Source of the DNA: a virus
DNA length: 24,348 nt
IMG/VR virus record: IMGVR_UViG_3300020020_000155
Location: 1 to 24,348 of that record
Direction: 5' to 3' (one strand)
Position 1 is the stretch's first letter. Each line of letters starts with the position of its first letter. The translations under genes were made by a program, and so were the position numbers. The notes under the pieces were generated by a model that did no database searches, had not been told where the DNA came from, and worked only from the letters and a program-made list of their open reading frames with translations. Shown here one piece after another: positions 12,793 through 24,269 of this stretch.

Positions 12793-14669
12793 TGCCCACC
12801 AGTATCAGAGACTGGCAGAAACATGGGGTAACCCTGAAGGTGGAACTAGCCACTTCAGGCAGTCTCATTGTAGGTAGCAACGAAACTAAGATACCGTTTA
12901 ACACTGGTGGCTCTTACGGTGCACCAGTGGGATGGAGAACAGGTGAGTTAAATACTGCTGATTATGAGCCATACCCTGGCAGTGAAAGTATGCACAATCA
13001 CACTACTAGTGGTGGGCTTTATTCAACATCTTCTAAAGGTGTAGCTCTTACTAGTAGGTGGGGTGGTATTTGGTCTAATCCTACCTGGGTCTGGCCAGTG
13101 ACCCCTGGTCATAGATACCAGGTGGGTGCTCAGGTCAGACAGATGGCTGGGAAGGCTCTTACTGTCAGACGTATTCTAGTTCAGGTTGCTGCTTCTCCTG
13201 CTGGTCCCTGGGTTCATTACATAAACCCTAGTCTGGTTTGGTTAGGTACTGAATGGGAAGATGTTTCCTACACTGGTCCTGCTATGCCTGCTGGCATGAC
13301 AGTAGCCAGGATTCTCCTTCTAGGTGCTAATCCTCCTGCTGCTACTTTGACTGAGTGGGGGTTACAGTGGCAGAACCTCTACCTCAGAGAGATGGACCTA
13401 GAGACCCCCCCATTAACCTGGGTAGATATTACCTGTGACGTTCAGGCTATGAACGTCAGATATGGCAGGGAGAGATTCACTAACAGGTATGACGTATCCA
13501 CAATGCAACTGGATATGTTGAATACCTCAGGCAAATACACTTACCATGAGAACCACCCTCTGAACCTGGCACCAGGTAGGCAGGTGAGAGTTACCGCTAC
13601 CTATGAAGGCATAGAGTACCCTCTGGCATTCCATGTTATTGACTCTTTGACTGATGGCTACTCCATGGATGGTCATGTGGTCTCTAGGTGGTCTCTGACT
13701 GACCCCACTGCAATCCTGTCTAATAAGACTGTTGCCAGTAGCCAGCTTCCTCCAGGGTCACAGAAGGGGGGTGGCAGAATCAATGCAGTGTTAGACCAGA
13801 TTGGCTACCTTCCCAGGCTCATTGATGAAGGTAACTTCTTCATGAGAAATATTGAAGCTAGCGGTAGAAGTCTCAGGGATGAAGCTGGGGTAACTGCTGA
13901 CTCTGAGGGGGGTAACTTCTTTGCCGACAGAGAGGGTAACTGTGTCTACAAAGATAGGGACTGGAACGCTGAAGATAGCAACCTGAACACTGTTACTGCT
14001 GACCTGGTAGGCCAGCCACACTGGGGGGATATGCCCCAGGTGGATGAAATACCTACTGACCCAGATGCACCCCTCATCTGCATCAATGAGCTACAGACTA
14101 GCTGGTCTCTAGATAGAGTAGTCAATATTGTGTCTCTGGCTAACGCAGGTGGCACTGCTCAGGAGTATGTTAATGAAGCATCCATGAAGCAGTATGGTCC
14201 CTTCACCTATCAGAGGCATGACTTTGTAAATAGCACCAGTGGATATATCCTAGACCAGAGAGCAGCAGACATTATGACTGGGTACTCTGACCCAGTTCTG
14301 AGGGTTAACAGTGTGGCCTACGCCCCAGGGGTCTCAGGAGCCTGGGACTGGACACTAGCTGCATTCCTCAACTGGATGGTAAGAGTATGGTACTCTCACC
14401 CTACTGAGGATTGGGGGTATGCAGTCTGTGTTCATATCCAGAGCATTGAACACAGGATAAGCCCTAAGGATTGGCTGACCACTCTGGTAGTTGATCTGCC
14501 TGCTTCCTTCAGAGAGCTTGAATGGTCAGATCATGGCTGGGATATGGATGAGTGGGATGCAACCTACTGGGACCAGACAGATGTAGAAGATTACGCTAAG
14601 TGGTCTAGTGATTATTATTGGTCTGACCCCCTGTCATTGTGGGGTCCCAGGCAAGGAGTCCCAGTGTGA
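12792..14669 (+). CDS. Large minor tail protein with N-terminal carbohydrate-binding-like region
   Basis: The 625-residue protein follows the tape measure, where distal tail and baseplate proteins are encoded. Residues 1-30 resemble a tail-protein N-terminus (IRDWQKHGVTLKVEL). Residues about 30-200 form an inserted-looking beta-rich region rich in Trp, Gly and Ser (VTPGHRYQVGAQVRQ, TEWGLQWQNLYL), similar in pattern to CBM4/9-type sugar-binding modules. From about 215 a distal-tail-like domain begins (VDITCDVQAMNVRYGRERFTN). The Trp/Asp-rich C-terminus (WSDHGWDMDEWDATYWDQTD) is striking. Role in adsorption is inferred. Confidence 0.75.
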   Translation: MPTSIRDWQKHGVTLKVELATSGSLIVGSNETKIPFNTGGSYGAPVGWRTGELNTADYEPYPGSESMHNHTTSGGLYSTSSKGVALTSRWGGIWSNPTWVWPVTPGHRYQVGAQVRQMAGKALTVRRILVQVAASPAGPWVHYINPSLVWLGTEWEDVSYTGPAMPAGMTVARILLLGANPPAATLTEWGLQWQNLYLREMDLETPPLTWVDITCDVQAMNVRYGRERFTNRYDVSTMQLDMLNTSGKYTYHENHPLNLAPGRQVRVTATYEGIEYPLAFHVIDSLTDGYSMDGHVVSRWSLTDPTAILSNKTVASSQLPPGSQKGGGRINAVLDQIGYLPRLIDEGNFFMRNIEASGRSLRDEAGVTADSEGGNFFADREGNCVYKDRDWNAEDSNLNTVTADLVGQPHWGDMPQVDEIPTDPDAPLICINELQTSWSLDRVVNIVSLANAGGTAQEYVNEASMKQYGPFTYQRHDFVNSTSGYILDQRAADIMTGYSDPVLRVNSVAYAPGVSGAWDWTLAAFLNWMVRVWYSHPTEDWGYAVCVHIQSIEHRISPKDWLTTLVVDLPASFRELEWSDHGWDMDEWDATYWDQTDVEDYAKWSSDYYWSDPLSLWGPRQGVPV

Positions 14670-15379: not shown

Positions 15380-15492
15380 CTGAGAGGTACCTAGAAGGCT
15401 CTCAGAGGGGAGTAAGGCTGTTCTGGGGCTACCAGGCACCCAGGGTGCTGTAGGTGGCTCCTGAGCTAGCTGGTGGGTTACCCTGGGGTAAC
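15380..15492. promoter_or_regulatory. Three inverted repeats at the end of the late operon
   Basis: CTGAGAG/CTCTCAG (15380-15386 with 15399-15405), GCACCC-A-GGGTGC (15436-15448) and GTTACCC-TG-GGGTAAC (15477-15492) lie in the gap 15352-15518, which holds no gene. The two tight palindromes look like operator-type sites; the first could form a weak terminator stem. Function unknown. Confidence 0.4.
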
Positions 15493-15518
15493 TTGCTTCA
15501 ACATCATCCCTGAAATAC

Positions 15519-15552
15519 AAGAACCCCCCAGGCTTTCACCTGGGGGGTTCTT
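15519..15552. terminator. Bidirectional terminator, copy 1
   Basis: A perfect 14-bp stem (15519-15532 with 15539-15552) with a six-base loop; the top arm is AAGAACCCCCCAGG. Pyrimidine-rich TTCTTCTTTG follows on the + strand and TTCTTGTATTTC on the - strand. It ends both the late + operon and the - strand gene at 15561. Confidence 0.88.
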
Positions 15553-15560
15553 CTTTGCCT

Positions 15561-15821
15561 TCACTCTGGCTGGGAATCCCTAGCCATCTGGGCTATGCAC
15601 TGAGAGCAGGCTTTATGGTGGCTGGTAGTTACATGCTGGCAGGTGGCTGGCTGAGTCCTGGCTGCTTCCTCATTGAGTCTGGTAGCGTACCTTTCTGCTG
15701 CTGGGTACTGCTTAAACCTCTTGACTGTCTTTCCAGTCTCATCCTTCACAGCTACTATGCCTGAGATATTCAACTTGATAGCAGTGTAGTTCTTCTGGCT
15801 GGGGCTGGGGTTCTGGGTCAT
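15561..15821 (-). CDS. Small Cys/His protein in a moron-like cassette
   Basis: The 86 residues have a basic N-terminal half (NISGIVAVKDETGKTVKRFK, then a helix PAAERYATRLNEEAA) and a zinc-knuckle-like end, C-QHVTTSHHKAC-SQC. It is not recognised. No Shine-Dalgarno sequence precedes ATG 15821, but a promoter -10 (TATAGT) ends 8 bases before it, so the mRNA is probably leaderless. The terminator at 15519-15552 follows its stop. Opposite orientation to the flanking late and early operons, with its own promoter and terminator, is the definition of a phage moron gene. Confidence 0.65.
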   Translation of the reverse strand: MTQNPSPSQKNYTAIKLNISGIVAVKDETGKTVKRFKQYPAAERYATRLNEEAARTQPATCQHVTTSHHKACSQCIAQMARDSQPE

Positions 15822-15829
15822 GCAGTCAG

Positions 15830-15856
15830 ACTATAGGAACTGCCTGAGGGTTTCAA
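15830..15856 (-). promoter_or_regulatory. Promoter for the 15561-15821 gene
   Basis: On the - strand, -35 TTGAAA (15851-15856) and -10 TATAGT (15830-15835) are 15 bases apart, 8 bases before the ATG. The block upstream, TTTCAGGGATG (15860-15870), is repeated before the next cassette, which has the same spacing. The 15-base spacer is short for sigma-70. Confidence 0.6.
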
Positions 15857-15874
15857 CCTCATCCCTGAAACAGA

Positions 15875-15906
15875 AGAACCCCCCAGGTGAAAGCCTGGGG
15901 GGTTCT
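15875..15906. terminator. Terminator, copy 2
   Basis: A perfect 13-bp stem, 15875-15887 with 15894-15906, near-identical to copy 1 but with the loop inverted (TGAAAG against CTTTCA). On the - strand it is followed by TTCTGTTTC. It closes the 15918-16094 gene. Confidence 0.88.
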
Positions 15907-15917
15907 GGTGGGGCTGG

Positions 15918-16094
15918 TCACCTGATTGGCTCTGGGCCTACTACACACTCTGCGGAGTGGTGCCAGGTCTCAATAGTCCTGGTAGTGGGCTGGGGCAGGA
16001 TACGCTCCAAAGAGCCACAGAACTGGCAAACCTTCTCACCTACCAGTTCCTTCGTCTTGTAGTTGTAGTGGATGCTGCTGGGGTGGCTGTTCAT
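15918..16094 (-). CDS. Small zinc-knuckle protein in a moron-like cassette
   Basis: The 58 residues contain CQFCG (about 23-27) and HHSAEC (about 45-50), a likely single zinc site, in a basic, tyrosine-containing context (SIHYNYKTKELVGEKV). I chose ATG at 16094 because a -10 box (TATACT) ends 7 bases before it, giving a leaderless mRNA; a TTG at 16115 would add seven residues but overlaps the promoter. Its own terminator is copy 2. Family not recognised; similar CxxC microproteins are common in actinophages. Confidence 0.65.
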   Translation of the reverse strand: MNSHPSSIHYNYKTKELVGEKVCQFCGSLERILPQPTTRTIETWHHSAECVVGPEPIR

Positions 16095-16101
16095 GGTGAC
16101 T

Positions 16102-16128
16102 AGTATAACCCTCAATCCTCAGGTTCAT
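16102..16128 (-). promoter_or_regulatory. Promoter for the 15918-16094 gene
   Basis: On the - strand, -35-like ATGAAC (16123-16128) and -10 TATACT (16102-16107) have a 15-base spacer, ending 7 bases before ATG. TTTCAGGGATG (16132-16142) lies just upstream, as in the neighbouring cassette. The shared layout supports both calls. Confidence 0.58.
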
Positions 16129-16159
16129 TCCCATCCCTGAAAGAATCTTCAGAAACAGA

Positions 16160-16191
16160 AGAACCCCCCAGACCTAAGCCTGGGGGGTTCT
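16160..16191. terminator. Terminator, copy 3
   Basis: A 12-bp stem, 16160-16171 with 16180-16191, with the same AGAACCCCCCAG arm as copies 1 and 2 and an eight-base loop. On the - strand TTCTGTTTCTG follows. It closes the 16218-16562 gene. Confidence 0.87.
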
Positions 16192-17934: not shown

Positions 17935-18065
17935 AGGATGATGTTAACTTCATCATGGAGTGTTCTACCTGTGGAGAATCCTGGGACCTAGATAAGGACC
18001 CTTCTACCTGTATCTGCATGACTGATTCAGGCTGGCATACCATAGTGGAGTTTGAAGATGAATGA
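17931..18065 (+). CDS. 44-residue CxxC microprotein
   Basis: The short gene encodes MKDDVNFIMECSTCGESWDL and continues to CICM and WHTIVEFEDE. The pairs CSTC and CIC could hold one zinc. It overlaps the preceding gene (ATGA) and the following gene's start, so it is embedded in a coupled operon; this context and the cysteine pattern argue that it is real. No function is known. Confidence 0.65.
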   Translation: MKDDVNFIMECSTCGESWDLDKDPSTCICMTDSGWHTIVEFEDE

Positions 18066-19743
18066 GAACCTGCTATATGACCCAGCCCTAAACCCCCCAG
18101 GTAGGGCAGACTTCAGAAGGGTGGGTAAAGGCATCCCCCTAGTCAAGGACCCTGAGACTGGGAAGATGGTTAGAAGGAGAAGGAGCAGCAGCGTAGGGAA
18201 GGTGCTGGATGATGAAAGCAACCTGACTGACTGGAAACTTAGAACTGTTCTAGTGGGTGCTGCTCAGTTGCCTGAAGTCCTAGCGGTAATCTCCACCCTT
18301 GACCCTGAGAGAGATAAGAAGGTTATCAGGGACTATGTTGAGGAATGCGTTCAGGCAGGCAAGGGTAACAAGCGTAGGGTTCAGGGTCAGGCAGTGCATA
18401 GCATGTTTGACCATGTTGATCTAGAGCATGACTGGGAACCAGCACCCCAGTTCAAGGCTGCTGTTCAGGCATATGTAGATATGTTGGAACTGTATGGCCT
18501 AGAGCCTGTAGACGTAGAAGTCCAGTGCGTGAATGACCAGCATGGTCTAGCAGGCACAATGGACAGAAGGTATAGAACTACCAGACAGTTGATTGCTCCT
18601 GATGGTCAGATTATCCCGATAGGTTCAATCCTGGTGGGTGACACTAAGACAGGTCTGAGCCTTGAATACGCTGCTGGCACCTACGCTACTCAGATTGCTG
18701 CTTATGTGGATTCTGTCAGATATGACGTTCTCACAGATGAACGCATCCCCTTTGACCCACCCACCTACCCAGACTGGGCACTAGTGGTTCATGCAGTGCC
18801 TGAAGCAGCAACCTGCCAACTGTATTGGGTAGACGTTCAGCAAGGCAGGTTAGGACTCCAGCTAGCTCAGCAGGTCTATGAGTGGAGAAGGCAGAAAGGT
18901 GGGCTGCTCTCCCCAGCGGTAGCAGCCCTGAGACTGGCACCAGAACCCCCCACAGAGCCTCAGGAGCCGTCTGAGCCTGCCCAGGGCACCCCAGCCACCC
19001 CAGCAGTCCCAGGGGTTCTCACAGACCTAGAGGACATTGAAGCAACCATGCTTCGTATTGAAGTGAAAGAGTGGCTGAGAACCAGAGTGGGGTTCATCAA
19101 AGAGCATTCAGACGTAGCCCTACAACATCTGGCTAGGAAGTGGCCAGAAGGAGTGCCAGGGCTGAAAGCAGACGTTCACACTAATGAGCAACTGGTAGCC
19201 ATTGATGCTGTTATCAGGATGATAGAGACTGAATACTCTCTGACCTTCCCTGAGCCTGACCCTAGGGAACTGGCTACCAGAACTTCTAGGGATAGGCACC
19301 CTTCCTCCCAGGCTAGGGAACACTCCGATAGGTGGGCTAAGCCTGAAGCATCAGACCCCACCCCCTCTGACCAGATTGAATCTCTGAAAGATTCTCTGGT
19401 AGACCACCCCAGGAATGAACTTCTCAGGCAGTGGACTTCAGCAGCAGTGCTGGGGTCAATAGGCCAGCCAGCCTATGACAGGTACGCCCTGGTTACTGCT
19501 CTCAGTGAGTTTGGCAAGCTGGGTCCTGAGTTTACAGATGAGCAAGTAACAGAACTACTCATAGGCACACTGAATGCCATGGGTTACCCAGGTGGGCTGG
19601 CAGACCTGGGCAGAATCAAACCAGAAGAAGCACCAGCCATCATGAGTGCTGTATTTGCGCTACATGCTGGCACAGCTATGCTCCTGTTTGATATGGATGA
19701 TAGGCCAGTAGTCAGATTCAACATACAAGAAAGTAAGGGGTAA
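18058..19743 (+). CDS. PD-(D/E)XK nuclease (Cas4/RecB-like) with a long C-terminal region
   Basis: The 561-residue protein has a Cas4/RecB-type exonuclease core in its first 320 residues: GQAVHSMFD (His 114), VEVQ (Glu 154), GTMDR (Asp 169) and VGDTKTG (Asp 195, Lys 197), the catalytic order of the superfamily, then an IAAYVDSVRYD helix. A Pro-rich linker (about 305-330) leads to about 230 residues of helices without a recognised domain. I chose ATG 18058, with GGAG 7 bases upstream, rather than TTG 18052. Beside RusA and an OB-fold-like gene, it probably processes DNA ends for recombination or replication. Confidence 0.82.
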   Translation: MNENLLYDPALNPPGRADFRRVGKGIPLVKDPETGKMVRRRRSSSVGKVLDDESNLTDWKLRTVLVGAAQLPEVLAVISTLDPERDKKVIRDYVEECVQAGKGNKRRVQGQAVHSMFDHVDLEHDWEPAPQFKAAVQAYVDMLELYGLEPVDVEVQCVNDQHGLAGTMDRRYRTTRQLIAPDGQIIPIGSILVGDTKTGLSLEYAAGTYATQIAAYVDSVRYDVLTDERIPFDPPTYPDWALVVHAVPEAATCQLYWVDVQQGRLGLQLAQQVYEWRRQKGGLLSPAVAALRLAPEPPTEPQEPSEPAQGTPATPAVPGVLTDLEDIEATMLRIEVKEWLRTRVGFIKEHSDVALQHLARKWPEGVPGLKADVHTNEQLVAIDAVIRMIETEYSLTFPEPDPRELATRTSRDRHPSSQAREHSDRWAKPEASDPTPSDQIESLKDSLVDHPRNELLRQWTSAAVLGSIGQPAYDRYALVTALSEFGKLGPEFTDEQVTELLIGTLNAMGYPGGLADLGRIKPEEAPAIMSAVFALHAGTAMLLFDMDDRPVVRFNIQESKG

Positions 19744-19749
19744 CAGGCA

Positions 19750-20220
19750 ATGTCACTAGATGAGGTTAATGACTTCTTGATGGGTCAGGGTGCTAAATCC
19801 TTCCCATTTGACAAAGTGGGAGACCAGGTAACTGGGGAGATTGTTGATGCCAGTAAGCAGCAGCAAACCAACATGGAAGATGGCAAGCCAGCTTTCTGGG
19901 ATGACGGTAACCCTAAGATGATGGTAGTGGTGACCCTTCAAACAGACCTGAAGGATGATGAGGATGATGATGGTAAGCGTACCGTCTACCTCAGAGGGGG
20001 TAACCCCCAGGTAGCTGAAGGCAAAGGAACCAGCAGCCTGAAGGCTGTTCAAGAAGCCATCAAGAAGTCTGGTTCAAAGAAGGGTATTGAGATGGGTGCC
20101 ACCCTGTCTCTGGGCTGGACAGGGAATGCAGTCAAGAAGGGTGGGCTGAACCCAGCTAAGTTGTATTCAGCAGCCTTCAAGCCAGCAGAACTGAACGTAG
20201 ACATTGAAGAACTGTTCTGA
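19750..20220 (+). CDS. Conserved OB-fold-like phage protein, possible ssDNA-binding factor
   Basis: The 156 residues begin LDEVNDFLMGQGAKSFPFDK, then VGDQVTGEIVD, KPAFWDDGNPKMMVVVTLQTD, an acidic loop DDEDDDGKRTVYLRGG, and a strand TLSLGWTG with a closing basic KKGGLNPAKLYSA. This is a frequent actinophage pattern whose beta-barrel layout suggests an OB fold. Position next to a RecB-like nuclease supports a single-strand-binding role, but the family is not characterised to my knowledge. A weak ribosome site (AAGGGG) precedes ATG. Confidence 0.65.
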   Translation: MSLDEVNDFLMGQGAKSFPFDKVGDQVTGEIVDASKQQQTNMEDGKPAFWDDGNPKMMVVVTLQTDLKDDEDDDGKRTVYLRGGNPQVAEGKGTSSLKAVQEAIKKSGSKKGIEMGATLSLGWTGNAVKKGGLNPAKLYSAAFKPAELNVDIEELF

Positions 20221-20223
20221 GCC

Positions 20224-20679
20224 ATGGCTGATGACTTTGGAAAGCCAAAGAAGATAGGTAAGCAAACACTGGTAGATATCACCAAACCCATGCACTTTAC
20301 TGTAGATGAGGTAGACCGTTCTGCTCATCAATGTGACCCCTGGGCCTGTGTCTTTGCTAATGCCATGAACAGGTACCCTCATATTACTGAGGCTCAGGTA
20401 GGAGCATCAAGGGTCAGGTTCAAGTATAAGGGTATCCCCATGAGGGGGTTTCTAACTGTCAATATGCAGAAGATGATTCAGGCATATGACAGAGATAACC
20501 AGATCATGCCTGCTGGCATAGTCATTGATGTTGTGCCACCCCCAGTTTCCTTACGTCTCCCTGTTGGTAACCCTGCTAGCAAGATATCAAAGAAGAACAG
20601 GAAGAAGTCAGGGAAGCCAGCCAGGATTCAGCCTCATGCTCCTAGCACAAGAAACATCTTTGTGAAGCCACCAGAATGA
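20224..20679 (+). CDS. Conserved early phage protein of unknown function
   Basis: The 151 residues include IGKQTLVDITKPMHFTVDEV, then AHQCDPWACVFANAMNRYP, RVRFKYKGIPMRGFLTV, and a very basic tail SKISKKNRKKSGKPARIQP. The pattern of an N-terminal beta part, a Cys-containing helix and a basic tail is familiar from actinophage early regions, and the tail suggests nucleic-acid binding. No catalytic motif is seen. The ATG lies three bases after the upstream stop; its own TGA overlaps the next ATG. Confidence 0.65.
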   Translation: MADDFGKPKKIGKQTLVDITKPMHFTVDEVDRSAHQCDPWACVFANAMNRYPHITEAQVGASRVRFKYKGIPMRGFLTVNMQKMIQAYDRDNQIMPAGIVIDVVPPPVSLRLPVGNPASKISKKNRKKSGKPARIQPHAPSTRNIFVKPPE

Positions 20680-21164
20680 CTGACCTGTCAGTAGCTAAGA
20701 GAGACCTACTAGAACAGGAAGTGATTATAGAACGTCACTTAGAGGGTTTCGTTCAGGTAGGCATAGCTCTCAGCAAGATAAGAGACCAGAGGCTTTATAA
20801 GGTGGATGGGTTCAAGTCATTTGAAACCTACTGCCGTGAACGCTGGAAGATGAGCAGGAGTTACGCTGATAAGCAGATCAAGGCTGCTCATCATGTTCTA
20901 GAAACTGAGGACGATCGTCCTCAGAATATTACTAGAACTGAGTGGGCAGTCAGGAACCATCTAGCAGCCATCAGACCTGCTCCTGTAGATGTGGCACCTG
21001 AAGTCAGAAAGCACCTAGAAGAACATACGGCAGAACCTGAAGTGATTTACATAGATCATGAGCAGGACAGATGTGATGTTCTCATGCAAGAGTTAGCAGC
21101 AAACCCACGCTTAGCCATTCTGGTGCATAAAGCACTTATGAAGTGGTATGCCTTGAATACATGA
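20676..21164 (+). CDS. Helical early protein resembling phage/plasmid DNA-binding factors
   Basis: The 162-residue protein carries GFVQVGIALSKIRDQRLYKV and FKSFETYCRERWKMSRSYAD followed by KQIKAAHHVL, a motif common to actinobacterial phage and plasmid proteins with a predicted helix-turn-helix (W-x-MSRSYADKQI). The remainder is helical. It may bind DNA in replication or regulation; homologues are mostly unstudied. ATGA overlaps the preceding gene. CpG occurs in a local cluster GACGATCGTC (20910-20919), a 10-bp palindrome within the gene. Confidence 0.62.
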   Translation: MTDLSVAKRDLLEQEVIIERHLEGFVQVGIALSKIRDQRLYKVDGFKSFETYCRERWKMSRSYADKQIKAAHHVLETEDDRPQNITRTEWAVRNHLAAIRPAPVDVAPEVRKHLEEHTAEPEVIYIDHEQDRCDVLMQELAANPRLAILVHKALMKWYALNT

Positions 21165-21436: not shown

Positions 21437-21486
21437 TGAGGATTCCCTGGGTGGGCCTAATCATCTTCTGGCATGAACCTCAATGA
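21436..21486 (+). CDS. Possible 16-residue hydrophobic peptide
   Basis: ATG at 21436 overlaps the preceding stop (TAATG) and reads MRIPWVGLIIFWHEPQ to a TGA inside the next gene. It may couple translation to the zinc protein, whose own ATG at 21473 has no ribosome site. It could equally be chance. Confidence 0.25.
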   Translation: MRIPWVGLIIFWHEPQ

Positions 21487-21964
21487 GGTATGTGCCTTCT
21501 GTCCTGAGCTAGCAGTAAGACTCCTGGGAACCCAGGGATACTGCCAGGAATGCCTAGATACGTTCCTAGAACCCCTCAGGCAGAAGGTACGTCAGAAGTA
21601 TGGGGATGTTAGGGCACTGATAAAGCATGAGGCTTCAGGCTGGCACCTAGAGTGCCAAATCTGTGGGGCCACCTGGGTAGGAGATGAGGGGGAACCCTGC
21701 TCCTGGTGCCTAGAGGGTTATCAGAGGCTCAGAGAGCAGCGTAGAACAGACCTGCTCCACCCCCACTGGCTCAGAACCTCTGTAGGCCATCCCACCTATG
21801 ACCTGCTGGATGAAGTCACCCAGGCTGTATGGAACAGAACCAGGGGTCAAACCAGGGAACCTCAGAGCATACAAGAATGGCAGAAGCAGATAGCCCAGGC
21901 TGAAGCTGAAGGTTTCATAACTCATGAAGAAGCAGATAGGACTCTGAGCAGATATGGCTTCTAG
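21473..21964 (+). CDS. Double zinc-finger protein before the replication ATPase
   Basis: The 163 residues hold two zinc sites: CAFC and CQEC (about 7-27), then CQICGATW and CSWC (about 62-80). The rest is helical and basic. Zinc fingers just before a RepA-like ATPase suggest a primase- or loader-like DNA-binding role, but no primase catalytic motif is seen. The ATG lacks a clear ribosome site and may rely on coupling to upstream translation. Its stop TAG lies 11 bases inside the ATPase gene. Confidence 0.65.
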   Translation: MNLNEVCAFCPELAVRLLGTQGYCQECLDTFLEPLRQKVRQKYGDVRALIKHEASGWHLECQICGATWVGDEGEPCSWCLEGYQRLREQRRTDLLHPHWLRTSVGHPTYDLLDEVTQAVWNRTRGQTREPQSIQEWQKQIAQAEAEGFITHEEADRTLSRYGF

Positions 21965-22922
21965 CAGGGATGCTTATGAAGAAGAACTAAGAAGGCTCTC
22001 TGCTGCTGCTAGTGAGTTTGCCAAACCCCAGACTAAGTATGAGGCTCTGGATTGGGTAGCCCTGATGAACAGGCTGGGTCATGATGTTGATTGGCTAGTA
22101 GAAGATATCTGGCCAGAGCTTAGGCATATCCATATTCATGCTCAGAGGAAAGCTGGAAAGTCGCTGATCAGTCTGTGGCTGGCTGTTCACCTAGCGATAG
22201 GTAAAGACCCATTCACAGGAGCCGCAATGACCCCTAAGGTAGTTGCCTACTATGACTTTGAAATGACTGAAGATGATATCAGAGAGAGGCTAGAGGATAT
22301 GCATATAGCTCCTGAGAGCCTAGAGAACCTTCATTACTACCTTCATCAGCCAGTTCCACCCCTTGACACTGAAGCAGGGGGTAGGGCACTGCTAGAGCAG
22401 GCAGTAGCCATGGGAGAACAGGTAATCTTCATTGACACTATGAGCAGGGTGGTTCAGGGAGATGAGAACAGTTCTGATACCTATATCAACTTCTACAGGT
22501 TCACAGGTCAGCCCTTGAAGTCTGCTGGTATAGCAATGTGCAGACTAGATCATGAGGGGTATCAAGAAGGCAGGTCTAGGGGTTCATCTGCTAAGGGAGA
22601 TGACGTAGATATTATCTGGCAGTTGAAGGTTCAAGATGATGGAATCCAGTTCATCAGGAAGGCTTCTAGGGTCTCCTGGGTGGCTGAGATAGTCAATATC
22701 ACTAAGGTTGATGACCCCCACCTGAGCTACAGCAGGGGTGCATTAAGCTGGCCAGAAGGCACTAAGGAGAAGGCTAAGGAGCTTGATGCTGCTGATGTAC
22801 CCCCAGAAGCAGGCAGGCATATCGCTACCAGAATGCTGAAGGCTGCTGGGTTTAGCCCAGGAAGAACAGTCACTTTGAATGCTGCTCTTAAGTACCGTAG
22901 GCAACAGGTACCCTGGCCATGA
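21954..22922 (+). CDS. RepA/RecA-type replicative ATPase (DnaB-like helicase family)
   Basis: The 322-residue protein matches the AAA_25/RepA branch of the RecA fold. It has a Walker A AQRKAGKS (63-70; Ala replaces the first Gly, as is tolerated in this branch), DFEM (101-104; catalytic Glu 103), Walker B VIFIDT (157-162), LDHEG (198-202), and RGSSAKGDDVDIIWQL (209-224), the hexamer/DNA-loop signature. The last 80 residues look like a small winged C-terminal domain. The protein probably unwinds or opens DNA at replication. The GAACAGG repeat cluster immediately downstream supports an origin-linked role. Confidence 0.83.
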   Translation: MASSRDAYEEELRRLSAAASEFAKPQTKYEALDWVALMNRLGHDVDWLVEDIWPELRHIHIHAQRKAGKSLISLWLAVHLAIGKDPFTGAAMTPKVVAYYDFEMTEDDIRERLEDMHIAPESLENLHYYLHQPVPPLDTEAGGRALLEQAVAMGEQVIFIDTMSRVVQGDENSSDTYINFYRFTGQPLKSAGIAMCRLDHEGYQEGRSRGSSAKGDDVDIIWQLKVQDDGIQFIRKASRVSWVAEIVNITKVDDPHLSYSRGALSWPEGTKEKAKELDAADVPPEAGRHIATRMLKAAGFSPGRTVTLNAALKYRRQQVPWP

Positions 22923-22940
22923 AACTTGAACTTTCAGGCA

Positions 22941-23104
22941 GAACAGGTTTCTGCATAACCCCTGGTAGATGGCCGGAACAGGTCAGACCAGCCTCTAGGC
23001 TAAGAACAGGTACCCAGAACAGGGGTAGCCACAGACCCTCTGACCAGGGAGAACAGGTCTCAGGAACAGGTGAGAACAGGTGCCCCAGGTCTATGGGAAC
23101 AGGG
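22941..23104. repeat. Iteron-like cluster of eight GAACAGG repeats, candidate replication origin
   Basis: GAACAGGT starts at 22941, 22976, 23004, 23051, 23064 and 23074; GAACAGGG starts at 23017 and 23097. All eight are in the same orientation in 164 bases, directly after the RepA-like ATPase stop. Start-to-start spacings are 35, 28, 13, 34, 13, 10 and 23 bases. The stretch 22923-23176 has no convincing gene. Directly repeated protein-binding sites beside an initiator or helicase gene are typical of theta origins; a regulator-binding array is the alternative. Confidence 0.62.
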
Positions 23105-23136
23105 GGGGGGTGTGTATGAAAGGAACACCCCCCTGG
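23100..23136. terminator. G-run hairpin after the iteron cluster
   Basis: A run of nine G followed by TGT (23102-23113) pairs with ACACCCCCC (23125-23133) over 9 bp, with flanking CA/TG able to pair around a three-G bulge; the loop is 11 bases. No U-run follows. It could be a terminator, replication-fork element or G-rich strand structure. Confidence 0.45.
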
Positions 23137-23176
23137 TCCAGACCCCCTCAGAACCACCCAGAAAGGAGTAACCAGC

Positions 23177-23347
23177 ATGACTGCATTAGTCTTAACATTA
23201 GTTCTGGCAGGTTTCGTTCTCATCATTCTGGCAGAGTGGATTAGAACCATTCTGGTACAGCAGTCTGAGCATGATGAGCAAACTTCTAGAATACGTTTAC
23301 TTAAGGAGTTGGATAAGCATGAACGAAACCATACCTCAGAGCCGTAG
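23177..23347 (+). CDS. 56-residue single-span membrane protein
   Basis: The gene encodes an N-terminal span (residues 2-20, TALVLTLVLAGFVLIILAE) and a charged cytoplasmic-type tail with RIRLLKELDKHERN. AAAGGAG ends 8 bases before ATG, a strong ribosome site, and the gene starts a new coupled run after the iteron region. No family is recognised. It could be a membrane-targeted host-takeover or superinfection factor; this is inference from location and shape only. Confidence 0.65.
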   Translation: MTALVLTLVLAGFVLIILAEWIRTILVQQSEHDEQTSRIRLLKELDKHERNHTSEP

Positions 23348-23582
23348 AGTAACCTGCTCCTTCTGCCAGACTGTCATAGACAGTAATGGTTCAGGCACCT
23401 GGCAAGTAGTTAAAGGCTGGTGCCCTATCAAGCGTTACTCAGGGAATAAGGGAGGCACCAATAACGTCAGCCTTGCTCAGAGGTTTCATACCTTTGCCTG
23501 TAGTGACTGCATCAGTAAGCTAAAGGCAGGCATACCAGTAGGCCAGCAAGAACTACCCTTCTTCAACATGGAGAATGAATGA
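23319..23582 (+). CDS. Zinc-binding early protein (CSFC ... CSDC)
   Basis: The 87 residues hold CSFC (about 13-16) and ACSDC (about 64-68), a pair of knuckles likely to bind zinc, with a basic middle stretch (WCPIKRYSGNKGG). I chose ATG 23319, which has AAGGAG 10 bases upstream; ATG at 23271 would add 16 residues overlapping the previous gene deeply. It overlaps the end of the membrane protein gene by 29 bases and the next gene by ATGA. Function unknown. Confidence 0.68.
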   Translation: MNETIPQSRRVTCSFCQTVIDSNGSGTWQVVKGWCPIKRYSGNKGGTNNVSLAQRFHTFACSDCISKLKAGIPVGQQELPFFNMENE

Positions 23583-23872: not shown

Positions 23873-24045
23873 CCATTAACCTAGACAGGTACAGGACTGA
23901 CCAGGAAGCAACTAAGACAGTCTCACTACACTGCTCAGACTGTGAAAGGATTATAGGCACCTGGCATATGAGGGGTGCCTGGCCTATCGTAGTGGAGCAG
24001 CGTAAGTATGAACATGCTGAACGTATCCATGGGGAACAGGCATGA
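23869..24045 (+). CDS. 58-residue CxxC microprotein
   Basis: The gene reads MTINLDRYRTDQEATKTVSL and then HCSDCERIIGTWHM, ending ERIHGEQA. The CSDC pair and nearby His residues could hold a zinc. ATGA overlaps join it to genes on both sides. It is too short for functional assignment; the coupling and codon pattern support that it is translated. Confidence 0.62.
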   Translation: MTINLDRYRTDQEATKTVSLHCSDCERIIGTWHMRGAWPIVVEQRKYEHAERIHGEQA

Positions 24046-24269
24046 GTCTCATTCAGTGGTATGATATAGACCCCCAGAATGCAGCAGACCTAGACCTATC
24101 AGTCAGGCTAGATATATCGGCTCCATTGAATGAGATGGGTGAACGCTGCTGCTGGCCATGGGACCCCCAGCAGTTAGCAGGGTATCCCTTAGGCCAGTAT
24201 CACTGTCCCTACTGTGGAGCCATGGTTGTGGCTGGGGTACCTCATCTTGATTATGGGGAACAGGCATGA
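24029..24269 (+). repeat. 17-bp repeat at two consecutive gene junctions
   Basis: ATGGGGAACAGGCATGA occurs at 24029-24045 and 24253-24269. Each copy encodes GEQA, the stop and the next start, and contains the GAACAGG core of the iteron cluster. Confidence 0.75.
24042..24269 (+). CDS. Zinc-ribbon microprotein
   Basis: The 75 residues contain CCWPWDP, then YHCPYCGAMVVAG, a C-C...CxxC zinc ribbon of a type often seen in actinophage small proteins. It ends YGEQA, as the preceding protein ends HGEQA, owing to a shared DNA repeat. It starts and ends with four-base ATGA overlaps. Function unknown; nucleic-acid or protein binding is possible. Confidence 0.66.
   Translation: MSLIQWYDIDPQNAADLDLSVRLDISAPLNEMGERCCWPWDPQQLAGYPLGQYHCPYCGAMVVAGVPHLDYGEQA

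Follow-up and report, generated by a model that had tools for sequence, protein, structure and literature searches.

The helicases SaPI Rep and SCCmec Cch2 belong to AAA+/SF3-like families. For both, short origin iterons have been described directly downstream of the helicase's own gene, where they are read by its C-terminal domain (PMC7581432). The locus analyzed here, which lies in a 24,348-base IMG/VR virus record taken in full (hereafter the window; probably a fragment), resembles SaPI Rep in that its iterons are located directly downstream of the helicase gene; however, the window enzyme is of the RecA-fold RepA type by Pfam, PDB profile, and fold, and thus falls outside the SaPI Rep family, and iteron binding is only predicted here. 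In phage lambda, the gene of the replication protein O itself contains the origin repeats. The same location, within the gene of the cognate replisome organiser, is known for the origin repeats of the lactococcal phages TP901-1 and Tuc2009 (PMC8965321). Streptomyces relatives of the window similarly carry repeats inside the replication gene; however, in TP901-1, Tuc2009, and lambda the initiator gene is separate from the helicase gene, whereas here the repeats are situated in or after the helicase gene itself, and outside it in this phage.

RSF1010 (IncQ), whose oriV is an iteron-type origin, encodes a RepA helicase of the same family and fold as the window enzyme. Its origin is melted by a separate protein, RepC (PMC8965321), whereas no RepC-like gene is seen in the window. 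Among phage replication proteins that recognize an eight-base word, the NrS-1 primase-polymerase recognizes TTTGGTTA on a single-stranded template (PMC8718748); the window helicase gene, in contrast, has no primase domain, and two of its relatives, L130 and L133 (L-numbers denote relative loci), have Prim-Pol N-termini. The origin of plasmid pRN1 is located 3' of the replication gene and requires a stem-loop rather than iterons (PMC4234260). The window shares with pRN1 a cis element with a stem-loop just downstream of the replication gene, but the helicase classes differ, as does the reliance of pRN1 on the stem-loop. In the open-access literature searched, we found no account of a RepA-type phage helicase with such an array.

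Repeat array and helicase gene of the window

The motif scan of the window confirmed that GAACAGG occurs eight times within 164 bases (Table 1), always on the plus strand, as the earlier note had described; six copies are followed by T and two (23017 and 23097) by G, and the repeat unit is nearer nine bases long, with the consensus RGAACAGGT. The claim that this density exceeds chance also holds, as a 7-mer with eight copies in the 254-base stretch was obtained in 1 of 2000 dinucleotide shuffles. The whole record contains 21 copies on both strands versus 4.27 expected from shuffles; those outside the array (10 on the plus and three on the minus strand) are scattered, with at most two per 254 bases. 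The density of the array is therefore unique in the record, and a similar cluster elsewhere, which had been named as an argument against an origin at this point, is absent. Helical phase is not strictly kept among the window copies. The array has a GC content of 56% and contains no AT-rich opening region, the nearest AT-rich 40-mer (23271-23310) being 167 bases beyond it. The skew rises steadily along the record, which ends 1.2 kb past the array. An identical 17-mer, ATGGGGAACAGGCATGA, which contains GAACAGG, is found at two consecutive gene junctions (24029-24045 and 24253-24269).

The G-run hairpin reported to bound the array on the right is indeed present, with 11 of 12 positions paired between its arms (23096-23107 and 23128-23139), of which the left contains an iteron and the right a one-mismatch inverted iteron; however, it is only slightly more stable than shuffled sequences (z about -1.5). 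A 66-codon ORF (22919-23119) spans the array and overlaps the helicase stop codon by ATGA. It was rejected as a gene, having little frame contrast in codon usage and no relative in the relative loci. An RNA element at the array was likewise rejected, as the fold is no better than that of shuffles, and no terminator was detected on the plus strand of the array region. Elsewhere in the window, three near-identical GC-rich hairpins, GAACCCCCCAG..CTGGGGGGTTC, occupy a gene-poor region between the tail and early genes (about 15480-16190).

The gene preceding the array, previously described as encoding a RepA-like ATPase, specifies, as judged from both its sequence and its predicted fold, a replicative helicase of the RepA type. 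Its product, a RecA-fold ATPase with the conserved motifs present, matches PF13481 (AAA_25) with an E value of 1.2e-18, a profile built from 39 relatives matches RSF1010 RepA (1g8y, 2e-8), and the predicted structure (pLDDT 89) retrieves RepA crystal structures first, with RSF1010 RepA as the best match (E 4e-12). Annotated phage relatives include the DNA helicase of Streptomyces phage mu1/6 (34%) and the "replicative DNA helicase, repA" of Streptococcus phage Javan535 (28%). The C-terminal three-helix domain is predicted with a mean pLDDT of 92 and is kept in nearly all relatives; the fold search returned no significant PDB match for it, including none to DNA-binding structures. The N-terminus, on the other hand, is exchangeable among relatives while the array stays: besides the Prim-Pol types mentioned above, there is a PriCT_2 domain in Javan535 and a DnaB N-terminal domain in the tested Streptomyces and Nonomuraea types. 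The L129 helicase contains a fused zinc-ribbon-like stretch with a weak resemblance to the window gene 21473-21964 (37% over 27 residues).

When the window genes were checked against the relative loci, the helicase was the only gene found beside all arrays; relatives of the exonuclease were present in 19 loci, those of the phrog_1911 protein in 14, and those of the downstream zinc genes in none. The large terminase gene (3-1613) runs on the minus strand, unlike the portal gene and nearly all others, which run on the plus strand. Megablast against the phage collection revealed no DNA-level relatives of the record, and single-protein scans revealed no close relatives.

Table 1. Coordinates of the array, the adjoining hairpin, and neighboring genes in the window.
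Feature	Position	Strand	Basis or remark
Phage exonuclease	18052-19743	+	upstream neighbor common to close relatives
phrog_1911 protein	19750-20220	+	upstream neighbor common to close relatives
Zinc-ribbon protein, possible accessory	21473-21964	+	overlaps helicase start; CxxC..WV..GE.C..C stretch, weak match to L129 fusion
RepA-type (AAA_25, RecA-fold) replicative helicase	21954-22922	+	Pfam, profile, predicted fold
C-terminal three-helix domain of helicase, candidate iteron-binding domain	22743-22919	+	predicted structure
Degenerate copy GCAACAGGT	22901-22909	+	one mismatch; in last codons of helicase gene
Array of eight direct iterons, RGAACAGGT	22941-23104	+	motif count, shuffles
Iteron 1 AGAACAGGT	22940-22948	+	GAACAGG from 22941
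Iteron 2 GGAACAGGT	22975-22983	+	GAACAGG from 22976
Iteron 3 AGAACAGGT	23003-23011	+	GAACAGG from 23004
Iteron 4 AGAACAGGG	23016-23024	+	GAACAGG from 23017
Iteron 5 AGAACAGGT	23050-23058	+	GAACAGG from 23051
Iteron 6 GGAACAGGT	23063-23071	+	GAACAGG from 23064
Iteron 7 AGAACAGGT	23073-23081	+	GAACAGG from 23074
Iteron 8 GGAACAGGG	23096-23104	+	GAACAGG from 23097; doubles as left hairpin arm
G-run hairpin closing array (GGAACAGGGGGG / CCCCCCTGGTCC)	23096-23139		pairing, shuffles

Repeat arrays in relative loci

The first set of relatives was obtained with a two-sequence helicase alignment, which yielded 79 viral and 24 genome loci; 101 loci, including the window and Javan535, were grouped into 69 clusters. 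Each locus was scored along its whole length for the most repeated 7-mer on both strands per 250-base interval. The strongest interval lay at the 3' end of the helicase gene in 40 of the 69 clusters (11 ties; 3.9 expected) and, in a second set collected with window-like helicases, in 26 of the 37 clusters outside the first set (6 ties; 3.3 expected), although relatedness among the clusters means that they do not represent independent trials. The counts are, if anything, low, because arrays of low complexity, for example those of L145 and L149 with their GGGGAGGT-type runs, were masked by the entropy filter. Three loci (L144, L146, and L150) retain the helicase with no array detected.

The arrays are placed within the 3' part of the helicase gene, across its stop codon, or just after it. 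In Streptomyces prophages they mostly fall in the final third of the gene, where each of the three reading frames and either orientation is represented among the copies; the L133 array straddles the stop codon, and those of the window, L200, L202, L227, and L228 follow it. The 400 non-coding bases that follow repA in Javan535 are densely filled with CAGGGACA, which occurs in either orientation. In 34 of the 69 clusters, the repeats in the last 450 coding bases were equalled by at most two of 200 synonymous shuffles. Of the 120 matches from an independent scan with AAACCNCAGGTCARAC, seven fall in the gene of a RepA-type helicase, each 247-283 bases ahead of the gene's end, while the others appear to be chance. 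A permissive search of viral contigs for three copies of GAACAGG returned 120 rows, many of them possibly chance, and a DNA-level comparison of the L200 array with phages found nothing.

The repeat words differ between clusters, so inheritance of a single sequence does not by itself account for the arrays; yet the words form a series around a GGNACAGGT / GGGAAC core. Next to RGAACAGGT of the window, this series includes GGGGACAGGT in L154, AGGACAGGT in L228, GGTACAGGT in L200, GCAGACAGGT in L133, GGGCAGGT in mu1/6, GGGGAACC/GGGGAACGT in Streptomyces prophages, and the Javan535 word given above; the types seen among prophage helicases include GGGAACC and GGGAACGT. The window's word GGAACAG also serves as the repeat in L227 and L199, at a helicase identity of 29-30%. 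In relatives, copies are typically separated by 10-13, 21-25, 32-33, or 44-45 bases; these gap sizes conform to helical spacing.

A CGGGACGCG array closes the helicase gene in the L131-L143 clade, and several members of this clade have DnaA boxes, up to 12 of them, about 400 bases further downstream. For instance, in L142 a stretch of about 300 bases, +418 to +714 relative to the stop codon (L142:7574-7950), contains 12 exact DnaA boxes (TTATCCACA/TTGTCCACA). This group constitutes an oriC-like cluster in a virus, and the ORF between it and the helicase gene is HNH endonuclease-like by eye.

Candidate initiators and alternative explanations

We propose that the array is most probably the iteron cluster of the phage replication origin, situated at the end of the replicative helicase gene. 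This reading is based on more than 60 distant relatives that carry an equivalent cluster, with a word of their own, at the end of the same gene. The conserved position of the array, together with the DnaA boxes in one clade, is as an origin predicts, rather than chance or a coding artefact. The earlier proposal of an iteron origin beside a replicative ATPase thus gains support, as more than 100 relative clusters were compared and most of them have an array, with a different but related word, at this position, the origin function being putative and judged from sequence comparison. An initiator would bind the RGAACAGGT copies cooperatively, open the DNA nearby, and load the ring helicase.

The initiator is somewhat more probably the helicase itself, acting via its C-terminal three-helix domain, than any other protein; a separate small phage protein is a doubtful candidate, and a host protein appears rather unlikely in this role. 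When the ATPase core is allowed for, iteron similarity between loci shows a partial correlation of 0.31 with C-terminal domain identity (reached by none of 500 permutations) versus 0.14 in the converse comparison for the core. Since linkage and shared ancestry could account for part of this covariation, and given the result of the fold search, we regard the C-terminal domain as a lead for the iteron reader. The earlier note had offered either the zinc proteins or the ATPase as binding partners. The evidence leans to the helicase as the predicted partner, because it is the only gene always present and its C-terminal domain is conserved, whereas among the zinc proteins only the one encoded just upstream shows any link, through its weak L129 match.

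Recognition of the origin by DnaA, or by another host or unlinked initiator, instead of the phage helicase is an unlikely variant of the origin reading. It would fit the clusters of DnaA boxes close to the L131-L143 arrays and the single box, TTATCCACA, in which the L133 array ends; however, GAACAGG is not a DnaA box, no excess of such boxes was detected in the window, and the words diversify with the helicase C-terminal domain, whereas a host site would stay fixed. As DnaA boxes accompany many but not all iteron-type origins, their lack of enrichment in the window does not decide on the origin reading itself. Repeated short sites are also typical of phage regulators, and the array is flanked by plus-strand genes, both consistent with repressor or activator operators or stoperators of the early operon that lie near the helicase only through a shared operon. 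Such a regulatory array is improbable given that no promoter-like site was found in 22700-23400, that most Streptomyces prophages have the array inside the helicase gene, that no regulator gene is common to the loci, and that the DnaA boxes of one clade point to replication.

A centromere-like site for prophage partition appears very improbable, even though direct-repeat parS sites are known near rep genes in extrachromosomal mycobacteriophages (PMC7157519) and the window protein 20676-21164 weakly resembles an NCBIfam replication/partitioning family, with a score below the cut-off: many relatives are situated on bacterial chromosome contigs, and no counterpart of this protein was found in the relative loci, whereas the arrays persist. 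We assign the lowest probability, close to negligible, to a functionless by-product of coding, arising from compositional bias or from linker repeats of low complexity. The array does encode a proline/glycine-rich linker in many relatives, and GAACAGG is somewhat frequent on the plus strand of this phage; but the window array lies after the stop codon, and the signal in relatives, with copies in three frames and both orientations, is destroyed by synonymous shuffling.

Returning to the preferred reading of the array as an iteron origin, we tentatively suggest that it may exemplify a widespread class of origins in actinobacterial-type phages: a ring helicase of the RepA type would read, via its C-terminal domain, iterons located at or just beyond the end of its own gene, and domain and iterons would co-diversify. 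A repeat cluster at the 3' end of a RepA-type helicase gene provides a sequence rule with which the likely origin can be sought across a large set of phages and of Streptomyces prophages. It also raises the testable question of whether a ring helicase with a RecA fold can itself recognize the origin, for which dozens of natural helicase-iteron pairs are offered for comparison.

Hairpins and a second conserved element

Perfect hairpins with a C4/G4 run occur at 1.43 per kb near the helicase stop codon versus 0.14 elsewhere in the loci, an approximately 10-fold difference. In L200, L201, and L227, both hairpin arms contain iterons and the folds are much more stable than those of shuffles, whereas the window hairpin is weaker. 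The hairpin probably belongs to the origin, contributing to strand opening or priming, which is the least certain step of the proposed mechanism.

CAGGTCANAC is characteristic of an element, AAACC(G/C)CAGGTCARAC, that is conserved in Streptomyces and Nonomuraea arrays. The window has one copy of CAGGTCANAC in the array (22979), which we rejected as a representative of this element and attribute to chance, because there is a second copy at 13131 and none of the 37 second-set clusters, which were collected with closer relatives of the window, has it. Among the relatives, 36 occurrences are near the helicase stop codon versus six elsewhere. The element is located inside the helicase gene in L149, L152, L155, L158, L160-L165, L172-L192, and others, and after it in L198, L200, and L227; it sits in two reading frames or in non-coding DNA, and is possibly a second protein site or an initiation point.
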